Below are positions 9,743-18,215 of a stretch of 64,000 nt of DNA, piece by piece. The notes beneath the pieces are model-generated. The model had not been told where the DNA came from, ran no database searches, and was given only the letters and a program-made list of their open reading frames with translations. A program made the position numbers and the translations under genes. This DNA comes from Thermoplasmatota archaeon (GTDB lineage Archaea > Thermoplasmatota > Thermoplasmata > UBA10834). Location: contig JAHIRF010000007.1 of assembly GCA_018818785.1 (NCBI GenBank), forward strand, positions 1 to 64,000. The letters are read 5' to 3'. Every line of letters starts with the position of its first letter. Position 1 is the stretch's first letter.

Positions 9743-10384
9743 TCATCCGTCCTTCGGCTTCCCGCAGTTCGGGCAGGTGTGCATGAAGGTCGGGAACTGG
9801 ACGTTGCAGTTCTTGCACCTGACCATCGGGGTGTGTGGCCCGTGTGCCGCCGGGTGCTGCGCACCCTTAGGCGGTGCCTGTGCAGGTGCTGCAGGTGGTA
9901 CCGGTGGCGGTACATATGGCTGTCCCGGAGCCTGTGCCTGGACGGTCCCTGGGGCATAGGGCTGGTAGCCCGTCGGTGCCTGGGCGGCGAGCGCGTCTCC
10001 CAGCTTGACATACGTGAGTATGAGCAGGATCGACGGCAGTGCGAACCCGAACAGTCCGATCAATATCCATACGAGTGTGTCGTTCTTCGCGTCATGGAAC
10101 CTACCCTGGTCGATCGCATCGAGCACGGTCTTCTTGAGGAACACCGATGCTATGAAACAGATCACGAGGGCGAAGAAGCCGAATATGCCCGCTGCGAGCT
10201 TTCCGGGTCCACCATCTATTGCGTATAGTGTGATATCCACGATTGCGATGATGAACCAAATCAGTCCGGCAAGCAGGAACATTATCTGCGCCCACCATGC
10301 ATATCTCCTTCCCTCGGCGACATCTCGCGGGAGCCATGGCGGCGTGTTTCCTGATGCTAGAATCGTGTTCATTGCGTTACTCAT
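9743..10384 (-). CDS. Membrane protein with Pro/Ala-rich linker and C-terminal zinc ribbon
   Basis: 213 residues. Three hydrophobic helices lie at about 30-50, 60-85 and 105-125. A 50-residue linker follows, dominated by Pro, Ala and Gln, and then a CxxC...CxxC zinc ribbon (CKNCNVQF and CPNCGKPK). The low-complexity linker probably tethers the ribbon away from the membrane. The function is unknown; architectures like this are common in Thermoplasmata and Methanomassiliicoccales. The ATG at 10384 is supported by GGAGG about 8 nt upstream. Confidence 0.75.
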   Translation of the reverse strand: MSNAMNTILASGNTPPWLPRDVAEGRRYAWWAQIMFLLAGLIWFIIAIVDITLYAIDGGPGKLAAGIFGFFALVICFIASVFLKKTVLDAIDQGRFHDAKNDTLVWILIGLFGFALPSILLILTYVKLGDALAAQAPTGYQPYAPGTVQAQAPGQPYVPPPVPPAAPAQAPPKGAQHPAAHGPHTPMVRCKNCNVQFPTFMHTCPNCGKPKDG

Positions 10385-11787: not shown

Positions 11788-12597
11788 ATGCTGGACAGTG
11801 AATTAATGAAATACGAAGACTATAAAGACATATATTTTAAGCTCAGAAACCCGAACGACATAGACCACCTGGCCGAAAGCATGAAACTCGACCGGGAGTT
11901 GCTGCTGGTGATATACTCACAGCGGACCGTTCGGGATGCTACCAGAAGATTCTACATCGTCAAGAAGGATATCAAGAAGCTCGCGAAGGAATGGAGAGCG
12001 GGCGTATCAATAGCCAAACTCGCCAGGAGGATCAACTTCCCGCCGGTGCTGCTGGGGCTCATGCTCGCACCGGAGATAAGGCTGACAAGGAAGCTGTACT
12101 GGAAGTACATCCGGGATCTGGATACCTGCCACGACAAGCGACTCAAGAAAGAGCTGATGCAGGTCGCTGAAGAGGACATCATATACTCCCCGAAGGGTAC
12201 CCAGGTACAGAACGAGAGGGGAGTGTGGGGAGAGAAGTTGCTCCAGGACTGGCTGGACAAGAGAGGCATCAAGTACCGCACCGAGGTGGAGCTGAGGAAG
12301 ACCCACACGAAGACCCCGGACTGCCTCCTGGACAAACCCATCCAGATAGATGGCACAAAGATCTACTGGATAGAGTCCAAGGCGTCCTTCGGAGACGAGA
12401 TAGAACTGAAGAAGAATGTCAGGAGGCAGCTACAGCCGTACACCGAGATGTTCGGGACGGGGGCTGTCGTGTACTGGTTCGGATACATCGAAGGTATAGA
12501 ACCGCCAGAGGGAATAACCCTACTAGACGGGTCGCATTTTGAAGAATGTGGTGATGCCCGGGAAGTCGAAGCACCTGGAAAGATTATTGACCAATGA
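11788..12597 (+). CDS. TPD-motif PD-(D/E)XK nuclease, archaeal homologue of eukaryotic CDIN1 (C15orf41)
   Basis: A 269-residue protein. The N-terminal half is helical and resembles two helix-turn-helix units (LAKEWRAGVSIAKLARRINFP). The C-terminal half is a Holliday-junction-resolvase-like nuclease fold with GVWGEKLLQDWL, then the family signature KTPDCLL, then YWIESKASFGD (the E-x-K catalytic pair). The TPD motif and layout match the family of human CDIN1, mutated in congenital dyserythropoietic anaemia type I; that knowledge is from the literature. Its ATGA stop overlaps the start of a Cas4-like nuclease gene, so the two are probably co-translated. The ATG at 11788 is preferred over an in-frame TTG at 11767. 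Confidence 0.85.
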   Translation: MLDSELMKYEDYKDIYFKLRNPNDIDHLAESMKLDRELLLVIYSQRTVRDATRRFYIVKKDIKKLAKEWRAGVSIAKLARRINFPPVLLGLMLAPEIRLTRKLYWKYIRDLDTCHDKRLKKELMQVAEEDIIYSPKGTQVQNERGVWGEKLLQDWLDKRGIKYRTEVELRKTHTKTPDCLLDKPIQIDGTKIYWIESKASFGDEIELKKNVRRQLQPYTEMFGTGAVVYWFGYIEGIEPPEGITLLDGSHFEECGDAREVEAPGKIIDQ

Positions 12598-13619
12598 CAG
12601 GCATAATCGACGGCATGGCCATGACCACCCCTGACCAGGACAAGTACATCTCTGCCGGAGACCTGGAGAAGTTCAGCTACTGTCCTCTCAGCTGGTGGTT
12701 GAGCAAGGAGCACGACCCCAGCAACGACGCGCTCAAGAAAGGCATCACGCGGCACGAGGAGCTGGGCCAATCACTCTGGAAGATCGATGTTGGCGAGAAG
12801 ATCGCCAAGGAATCTGAGAGGATGGTCTTCTGGTACGCCGTCGTCGCGACGCTGATAGCCATCACCGGCCTGGGGCTTTTGCCGTTCGAGGAGGCCGTCT
12901 CCATCAGCGAGATCATGGGTGTGGTCGCACTCATCTGGATCCTTGCAGCATCATTCTTCCTGTTCAAGGCGTCTCGGTCCACGATGCAGAGCAAGCTGGT
13001 CGACTACGAGAAGATAATCCTGGTGTTCGCGATCGTCGCAGTGGTGATCGCGTTGAATGCAGTGGCATTCATACAGAGCAGCCGGGAGATGGCGCAGATA
13101 CTGGAACTTGTGGCGATCATCTGGCTGATAGGCGCATCCTACTTCCTCTACAGATCCCTGATGTCGACCAACATCGTCAGCACCCTCAGGGACGAGTTCA
13201 GGGTCAAGGGGAAGATCGAATACATCGATGTGGACAACTCGAAGGTGTTCAGATCCGAGAGGTACGGACTGTCAGGAAGGCCGGATTACGTAATCAAGCT
13301 CGCAGACCATTTGATACCGGTCGAGGAGAAGAAAGGCAGGACACCCAGAGGTCCCCTGTTCTCCCATGTGCTCCAGATCGTCGCCTACTGCCTCCTGATA
13401 GAGGAGACGGAGAAGAAGGCGCCACCTTACGGGTTGCTGAAGTATCCCGAGCGCGAGGACGAGATCGAGTACAACGAGGATCAGAAGAACCTGCTCGTGC
13501 AGAAGCTCGGAGAGATGAGACAGATAATGAAGACCGGCGAGGCACACAGGAACCACAACAGGCCTGGCAAGTGCACGAACTGCTCCAGAAGGGATGTCTG
13601 CACCGAGAAGCTCACCTAG
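12594..13619 (+). CDS. Cas4/Dna2-like Fe-S nuclease with four inserted transmembrane helices
   Basis: 341 residues. The N-terminus has an early Cys in EKFSYCPLSWW. The C-terminus has three further Cys in CTNCSRRDVC, together a Cas4-type [4Fe-4S] set. The nuclease core shows GRPDYVI, then PVEEKKG (the E-x-K pair), then the QIVAYCLL motif. Between the first Cys and the core lie two helix pairs: VFWYAVVATLIAITGLGLL and VVALIWILAASFFLF, then ILVFAIVAVVIALNAVAF and LVAIIWLIGASYFLY. The protein should therefore be membrane-anchored with the nuclease in the cytosol. No CRISPR array or cas gene is nearby. It overlaps the upstream TPD nuclease gene by 4 bp. Confidence 0.82.
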   Translation: MTGIIDGMAMTTPDQDKYISAGDLEKFSYCPLSWWLSKEHDPSNDALKKGITRHEELGQSLWKIDVGEKIAKESERMVFWYAVVATLIAITGLGLLPFEEAVSISEIMGVVALIWILAASFFLFKASRSTMQSKLVDYEKIILVFAIVAVVIALNAVAFIQSSREMAQILELVAIIWLIGASYFLYRSLMSTNIVSTLRDEFRVKGKIEYIDVDNSKVFRSERYGLSGRPDYVIKLADHLIPVEEKKGRTPRGPLFSHVLQIVAYCLLIEETEKKAPPYGLLKYPEREDEIEYNEDQKNLLVQKLGEMRQIMKTGEAHRNHNRPGKCTNCSRRDVCTEKLT

Positions 13620-17054: not shown

Positions 17055-18215
17055 ATGGGTCCGAAACGAACGAGGGGCGCGTACAGGAAGGAGGAGAGGG
17101 CGGAGCTACCCCAAGGACTGCAGAGAAGACTGGTCGATTGCGCCGCGGCGAAGTACGGCACGACGGAGAAACTCGCGAAAGCTCTCGAGATACCGAAATC
17201 TTCAGCGCATTACTACCGCTCGGGCAGGCTCACGATGCCGATGTCCATCATGGATAGGATGCTGGCCATCGCAGCAGACCCAGAACTGGAAGAAGATGTG
17301 CGGAATGCTGCGGTCATCAAGGGCCGCACATGGGCGAACTCATATGCCGCTAACATCAACCGCGAGATGTGCAAGAAGCGACTAAGGCTGCCGACGGTCG
17401 AAGAACTGCAAAGCAACGACGAGCTCAGGAGAAAGGCCGCTGCAATCGTGTCGTATGTCATGGCGGAAGGATCGATCTGGATACGGGACGACAAGGACGG
17501 CGAAGGAACGGTCAACATAACGTTCGCGGACCACGAGACCGACCTGTACGAGCATTTCCGGTCGCTGTGCAAGGACGTGTTCGACTACGATATCGGACCA
17601 CCTCAACTCCCAGGGAACGGCGCGAGGGCGATCAGGGGGTTCATCTATTCGAGATTCGTGGCGGATTGGCTCATGTTGAATGGCGTCGTTGAAGGCGAAA
17701 AATCCGCGAAGGAGATGCGTATCCCGAAATGGATAATAGGCTCAACCGATCCATACACTCTGGTCGCGGCGCTACAACCCTGGTGCGATGGCGAAGGTAG
17801 TGTCTGCGGATGCTATGGGCAGAGATACAACGGCTTCATCCTGGTTCAGAGCAGGCATACAATGATTGATTTCTCTGTCCTCGACAGAGTAATCGGACAT
17901 AGAGGATCTGGGAGGAACATCCCGGCAGGATTGCTCGACCTATCATGCATTCATGGCATCAATGCCATCGAGTATTGTCGCGCATTCTACGATAGCGAGG
18001 TGATCGGAGACATCAAGCATCTATTCGACAAGCTCGGCCTTCGGCCGATAAAGAGATTGGCGTCTATCCACCTGAAGGACGATGGATTCTACAGTTGCAT
18101 TTGGGAACTGAGGTTTCGCATGAGGGACACTTGCAGGCTTCTGAATATGGGAATGGTGACCCAGGAGCGTAAGGCTCGAAAGATAGCAGGGATCGGCTCT
18201 CATATCAGGCAATAA
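17055..18215 (+). CDS. Free-standing HTH-LAGLIDADG family protein
   Basis: 386 residues with no intein or intron host around it. Residues 25-60 look like a helix-turn-helix (TTEKLAKALEIPKSSAHYYR). Two LAGLIDADG-type motifs follow: AIVSYVMAEGSIWI (about 130) and VAALQPWCDGEGSVCG (about 240), each with an acidic residue in place. Each motif is followed by a half of the homing-endonuclease fold. Archaea use such proteins either as homing endonucleases or, after domestication, as DNA-binding regulators. The N-terminal HTH and lack of splicing blocks favour a regulatory or selfish stand-alone protein. The gene ends beside a tRNA gene. Confidence 0.75.
   Translation: MGPKRTRGAYRKEERAELPQGLQRRLVDCAAAKYGTTEKLAKALEIPKSSAHYYRSGRLTMPMSIMDRMLAIAADPELEEDVRNAAVIKGRTWANSYAANINREMCKKRLRLPTVEELQSNDELRRKAAAIVSYVMAEGSIWIRDDKDGEGTVNITFADHETDLYEHFRSLCKDVFDYDIGPPQLPGNGARAIRGFIYSRFVADWLMLNGVVEGEKSAKEMRIPKWIIGSTDPYTLVAALQPWCDGEGSVCGCYGQRYNGFILVQSRHTMIDFSVLDRVIGHRGSGRNIPAGLLDLSCIHGINAIEYCRAFYDSEVIGDIKHLFDKLGLRPIKRLASIHLKDDGFYSCIWELRFRMRDTCRLLNMGMVTQERKARKIAGIGSHIRQ

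Follow-up and report, generated by a model that had tools for sequence, protein, structure and literature searches.

A predicted integral-membrane form of solo-Cas4 across Thermoplasmatota, next to a separable TPD-type nuclease gene

Cas4 nucleases encoded outside cas loci, the solo-Cas4 proteins (COG1468/pfam01930), have been reported in most archaea, where their job outside CRISPR is unsettled and where roles in defence or repair have been proposed (Hudaiberdiev et al. 2017, PMC5704561). The protein that we describe here resembles them in lying outside cas loci, in its four cysteines and RecB-type motifs and in its mostly vertical inheritance, and it differs from them by an insertion of membrane helices between the Cys1/His part and the nuclease core. 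The text of that paper contains no membrane form of Cas4, its sole mention of 'membrane' being the name of a carboxypeptidase (PMC5704561). No description of a membrane Cas4 was found among open-licence papers, and as far as that literature shows this form is undescribed. The gene beside it belongs to the family of C15orf41/CDIN1, for which orthologues in Euryarchaeota were previously reported (PMC7092493).

The window, by which we mean the whole 64,000-nucleotide stretch of DNA that was analysed, comes from a Thermoplasmatota assembly of 1.97 Mb in 12 contigs that is 94.5% complete. The two genes and their parts are as follows.

11788 to 12597, forward strand: TPD (PF14811, CDIN1/C15orf41-like) PD-(D/E)XK protein, 269 aa.
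12232 to 12381, forward strand: predicted TPD active site, with E149 (12232-12234), T176-P177-D178 (12313-12321), E196 (12373-12375) and K198 (12379-12381).
12594 to 13619, forward strand: solo-Cas4 containing four membrane helices (341 aa when read as the longest ORF), supported by profile match, start comparison and AlphaFold2 model.
12681 to 12755, forward strand: N-terminal Cas4 half, with Cys30 of the CPLSWWL motif (12681-12683) and His54 (12753-12755).
12825 to 13148, forward strand: four predicted transmembrane segments between His54 and the nuclease core (residues about 78-96, 106-124, 141-159 and 167-185), from hydropathy, positive-inside bias and AlphaFold2 helices.
13284 to 13388, forward strand: RecB-type nuclease core, with D231, E244-x-K246, Q261 and Y265.
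13572 to 13601, forward strand: C-terminal cysteines C327, C330 and C336, which with C30 are the predicted Fe-S ligands.

The second gene encodes a solo-Cas4 in which membrane helices interrupt the chain after Cys1/His and before the D-ExK core. Its ORF scores 79.3 bits against the TIGR00372 cas4 profile, above the family cut-off of 65, and 38.6 bits against Pfam PF01930 (Cas_Cas4; cut-off 22.7), with PDDEXK_1 also matched. In an alignment of 25 sequences (A1), C30, K246, Y265, C327, C330 and C336 are invariant, H54, D231 and Q261 are each present in 24, and position 244 is E in 21 and D in 4; the alignment contains the full set of residues that marks the Cas4 family, namely one N-terminal and three C-terminal cysteines, the histidine, the D and the ExK. 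The predicted ligand residues for an Fe-S cluster are present, and the protein may carry one.

The hydropathy peaks of the insertion reach about 1.9-3.0 over 19 residues. Stretches predicted to lie inside contain about 23% K+R and loops predicted to lie outside 4-7%, following the positive-inside rule, and this bias places both nuclease halves in the cytoplasm. The AlphaFold2 model (pLDDT 83.5) has long helices at residues 45-95, 101-128, 132-158 and 164-202, which separate the N-terminal part from the beta core; the membrane calls thus combine hydropathy, charge bias and one predicted model. The first-pass annotation, made from the DNA alone, had read this gene as a Cas4-like nuclease with four membrane helices, and the profile score together with hydrophobic segments near residues 78, 106, 141 and 167 bears that reading out. 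In VIA-align comparisons the model matched Cas4 of Cas4/Cas1/Cas2 complexes at Z 18.7 (7mi5, rmsd 2.6, 155 residues) and 17.0, followed by AdnAB (14.0), EXO5 (13.2), MGME1 (12.9) and Dna2 (11.6), and Foldseek returned 8d3q at E 5.9e-06, which agrees with a Cas4-like fold. After Cas4 and AdnAB, the solved folds nearest to the model are thus those of EXO5, Dna2 and MGME1. Of these, EXO5 and Dna2 use an Fe-S cluster and act on single-stranded DNA, and none of the three is known to have such a membrane insertion.

The insertion recurs throughout the phylum, with 2, 4 or 8 segments. Two segments are found in sampled members of families f13, f19, f20, f22, f27, f31 and f41 (these labels are anonymous), four in the window protein and most others, and eight in f18, f33, f34 and f38; a few members give an odd number when segments are simply counted by hydropathy, which we take to be threshold effects. 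In five eight-helix proteins (L183, L184, L188, L189 and L193) the profile matches come in repeated overlapping pieces, a pattern that suggests duplicated helix hairpins. In our sample of 292 Thermoplasmatota genomes, relatives of the Cas4 occur in 188 and relatives of the TPD protein in 159. Beyond the phylum, the distribution rests on one genome-collection scan, from which the best 80 of 355 relatives were considered and in which other archaeal phyla were hardly sampled; the nearest named relatives among these 80 are Thermoplasmata/Euryarchaeota MAGs.

In several lineages the Cas4 gene is split within the insertion: in f23 (23 loci, 22 genomes), f5 (13 genomes) and f2 (4 genomes), comprising loci L181, L182, L198, L200, L202-L223 and L255-L271. 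The upstream gene, N, has about 80-120 codons and encodes one helix together with the Cys1 motif and, in most cases, the His; the downstream gene, C, has about 170-250 codons and encodes one helix, the nuclease core and the three cysteines. A sequencing error is unlikely because the split is conserved across families. Since it falls within the insertion, two subunits with one helix each would contribute the four cysteines and the active site. The split forms fall into two clades of the core tree, whose deep forks are weak. Two genomes, G113 (L252, L272) and G306 (L254, L273), encode a full-length four-helix Cas4 as well as a second, split copy. Another genome with a split membrane Cas4 (G151) also has a frame of 566 codons (L275, 1267-2964) whose start matches Cas4; from its length and later sequence it looks like a candidate Cas4-Cas1 fusion.

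In most split loci gene C starts within -4 to +4 nt of the gene N stop, which is the range expected for coupled subunits (PMC10666635). The start in f5 is mostly ATG, with GTG once, TTG once and a few non-standard candidates. In f23, an ATA overlaps the gene N stop in 17 of 23 loci (L181, L182, L200, L203, L205, L208-L217, L219 and L220), a few bases past a Shine-Dalgarno-like sequence of the GGGGTGAT/GAGGTGAT type, and L202 and L204 have ATG where other loci have ATA. In three f23 loci (L214, L215 and L221) the C frame contains none of the codons ATG, GTG and TTG over about 210 nt. Gene C in f23 is predicted, from these junctions, to start at a conserved AUA codon. Substitutions in the helix region led by ATA or ATG number 67, 43 and 73 at codon positions 1, 2 and 3, and the minimum at position 2 is weak evidence that fits translation of a hydrophobic helix. 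We also considered a programmed frameshift and rejected it: the junctions showed no slippery sequence, and start codons lie at the gene N stop.

The first gene of the pair matches PF14811 in Pfam with 151 bits (cut-off 27, E 2.4e-44), which places it in the TPD family; an ATG at 11806 (MKYEDYK) may be the start common to relatives. In an alignment of 24 sequences E149, the T-P-D at 176-178 and K198 are present in all, and position 196 is E in 21 and D in 3. The TPD/CDIN1-type assignment of the first-pass annotation therefore stands, and the nuclease residues, whose presence in relatives it had set as a check, are conserved in both families. The AlphaFold2 model (pLDDT 91) has weak fold matches, the best reaching VIA Z 7.9, to BsaWI and AF1548; Foldseek returned nothing at E <= 0.001, and the TPD profile matched no solved structure. 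Identity with the archaeal Holliday junction resolvase Hjc was rejected, the PF01870 score being 12.6 bits against a cut-off of 21.1 and Hjc appearing merely as a weak Foldseek match. The protein shares with CDIN1/C15orf41 the PF14811 domain and its TPD motif; the human protein binds Codanin-1. We read the archaeal TPD protein as a soluble member of the PD-(D/E)XK group and a relative of eukaryotic CDIN1; its predicted active site is intact, and it most likely acts as a cytoplasmic, housekeeping-type DNA endonuclease.

Do the two nucleases form a unit? As longest ORFs they overlap by ATGA, on which the first-pass annotation had based its claim of two overlapping genes that must be co-expressed. 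Among 39 loci in which TPD and Cas4 are paired, the ATG at -4 is unique to the window, with one other locus (L070) having TTG there. The window has ATGs at -4, +17 and +23 relative to the TPD stop. In close relatives the ATG nearest the ISAxDLEK motif sits 24-27 nt before it, and the window counterpart, ATG 12621, lies 23 nt past the TPD stop and is probably the start that relatives share. The overlap is thus a property of the longest ORF, and likely Cas4 starts in the paired loci are mostly more than 20 nt beyond the TPD stop. According to a published analysis, termination-reinitiation depends on genes that overlap or lie very close together, and genes separated by more than 20 nt seldom encode subunits of a complex (PMC10666635); measured against a conserved overlap or a spacing of about -8 to +10 nt, as expected of translationally coupled pairs (PMC10666635), TPD and Cas4 fall outside. 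Obligate co-expression is too strong a claim because the overlap is not conserved; co-transcription, on the other hand, is plausible from the close same-strand spacing. The window contains at least five other 4-nt ORF overlaps (18389-18727/18724-19371, where an SCP2-domain gene meets an RNase HII gene, 25521-26447/26444-27472, 29557-29892/29889-30302, 35093-37729/37726-39300 and 43652-44935/44932-45291).

The phyletic pattern also speaks to this question. Counted from the match tables of the 292-genome sample, a full-length membrane Cas4 occurs in 44 genomes, 21 with TPD and 23 without detectable TPD; the genes are adjacent in 14 of the 44 (all in families f1, f6, f8 and f9 or in a single genus of f3, so in five families of the class) and kept apart in 7. 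Families f4, f7, f12 and f35 have Cas4 without a TPD match; in most f3 genomes TPD is matched and Cas4 is not. Among the 80 named loci (the best 80 of 355 relatives), TPD lies directly upstream in 26 and not upstream in 42, and in 12 the upstream sequence is too short, which gives 26 of 68 with enough sequence. In L089 (G174) the order c9-GlmS-TPD-c4 is kept and Cas4 is absent from its place, a clean loss in a genome with no Cas4 match. The first-pass annotation had proposed that TPD and the membrane Cas4 could process DNA as one coupled soluble/membrane system, in which they would be two subunits or two steps, and had asked for conservation of the pair. Conservation beyond this genome is indeed found, and the same-order adjacency in five families, the short spacing and the predicted nuclease nature of both proteins favour such a system, with the best evidence for some functional link coming from L073 (f3), where the pair is intact though the genes beyond TPD differ. 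The pair is nevertheless not obligate. The overlap is not conserved, the spacing lies mostly outside the range of coupled subunits, each gene is alone in many genomes and Cas4 was cleanly lost beside a retained TPD; moreover, flanking genes (GlmS, the nucleotidyltransferase and others) are as conserved as the pair, so that an adjacency within this longer housekeeping block needs no functional link. On these patterns we reject an obligate TPD-Cas4 operon and regard a coupled system as improbable. On balance the two genes are separable, and part of the class seems to have kept them side by side from an ancestral gene order.

The surroundings of the pair are of housekeeping type: an alanyl-tRNA-synthetase-like editing protein, a dehydrogenase of the Fe-ADH family, a GlmS-like protein, a nucleotidyltransferase and RNase HII. 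A search that was positive for 9 of the 14 control genomes detected no Cas1 in the window's genome, and neither a helicase nor a recombinase turned up among the neighbours that were tested to a distance of about 10 kb, in agreement with the first-pass annotation, which had noted no CRISPR locus, helicase or recombinase nearby. With such neighbours and no Cas1 match, the protein classifies as a solo-Cas4 and not as a CAS-Cas4 encoded with cas1. A mobile-element gene was rejected as well: no relative of either protein was confirmed in viral contigs, TPD was found in no plasmid or phage, and Cas4 was found in no phage and matched 4 plasmids by its core domain only. Nor does the locus correspond to a known defence system, PADLOC returning Cas4-type and weak DruK matches for Cas4 and nothing for TPD.

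The best explanation, to which we assign a probability of about 0.6, is that two separate chromosomal nuclease genes stand next to each other through a lineage-specific, plausibly co-transcribed gene order, and that the second encodes a membrane-held solo-Cas4 that trims DNA at the membrane. The architecture, residue conservation, topology signal, fold and phyletic pattern of this Cas4 are read directly from the computed comparisons. The insertion would cross the membrane and return, so that the two halves could fold together into one Fe-S RecB-type nuclease at the cytoplasmic face, which a helical stalk would keep at the membrane in vivo. As a homologue of Cas4, EXO5 and Dna2, the enzyme may act as an exonuclease that degrades or trims single-stranded DNA or 5' ends, its polarity being predicted by analogy. 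Its likeliest role would be to clear DNA ends or single strands near the membrane, whether these come from foreign DNA on entry or arise in repair close to the membrane.

Other readings of the membrane Cas4 fare less well. That its hydrophobic insertion is a soluble helical bundle gains something from the long helices, which also match arfaptin, ESCRT-III and VIPP1 bundles, but such matches are common for helical models, and the hydropathy peaks, the strong positive-inside bias and the variation of the insertion among 2, 4 or 8 segments, with a cut after the first segment in some lineages, make a bundle very improbable. No more credit can be given to a CRISPR adaptation Cas4 acting on prespacers: the TIGR00372 match and the participation of the Pyrococcus furiosus solo-Cas4 in spacer processing (PMC12538437) speak for it, and the lack of Cas1 in a genome of this completeness weighs heavily against it. 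A nuclease that destroys foreign DNA during its passage through the membrane would refine the role given in our preferred reading rather than replace it. Such entry defence agrees with a predicted nuclease at the inner membrane face and with the roles proposed for solo-Cas4 (PMC5704561), yet there are no defence-gene neighbours, the PADLOC matches are to the Cas4 domain and weakly to DruK, and the broad, steady distribution resembles that of a housekeeping gene; we regard it as unlikely, though well ahead of the two preceding readings.

Under the preferred reading, a membrane-held solo-Cas4, the novelty lies in the membrane Cas4 family across Thermoplasmatota, sometimes split in two genes, rather than in the TPD-Cas4 pair. 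It is tempting to go further and to propose, at slightly under even odds, that Thermoplasmatota have throughout the lineage a Cas4 family of integral membrane proteins, which carries 2, 4 or 8 inserted helices and polices or trims DNA at the membrane. Several lineages would have split it into two abutting genes, so that two membrane subunits with one helix each complete the Fe-S cluster and the active site between them, and one family would make them through coupled re-initiation at a conserved AUA. A membrane-anchored Cas4 found phylum-wide suggests the site at which the enzyme acts and yields a concrete prediction that can be tested. The split form, if true, would offer a natural example of two membrane subunits that together build a predicted Fe-S nuclease, and the conserved AUA start, if true, an unusual case of coupled non-AUG initiation.

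Two further proteins of the window deserve mention. The gene at 9743-10384 on the reverse strand encodes a 213-aa protein with hydrophobic segments and a Cys-rich C-terminus, adjoins TPD in most paired loci (cluster c4) and has only weak Pfam matches, to DUF805 and zinc-ribbon. A 386-aa protein without a Pfam match, encoded at 17055-18215 on the forward strand, is conserved in the sister genome (L061).
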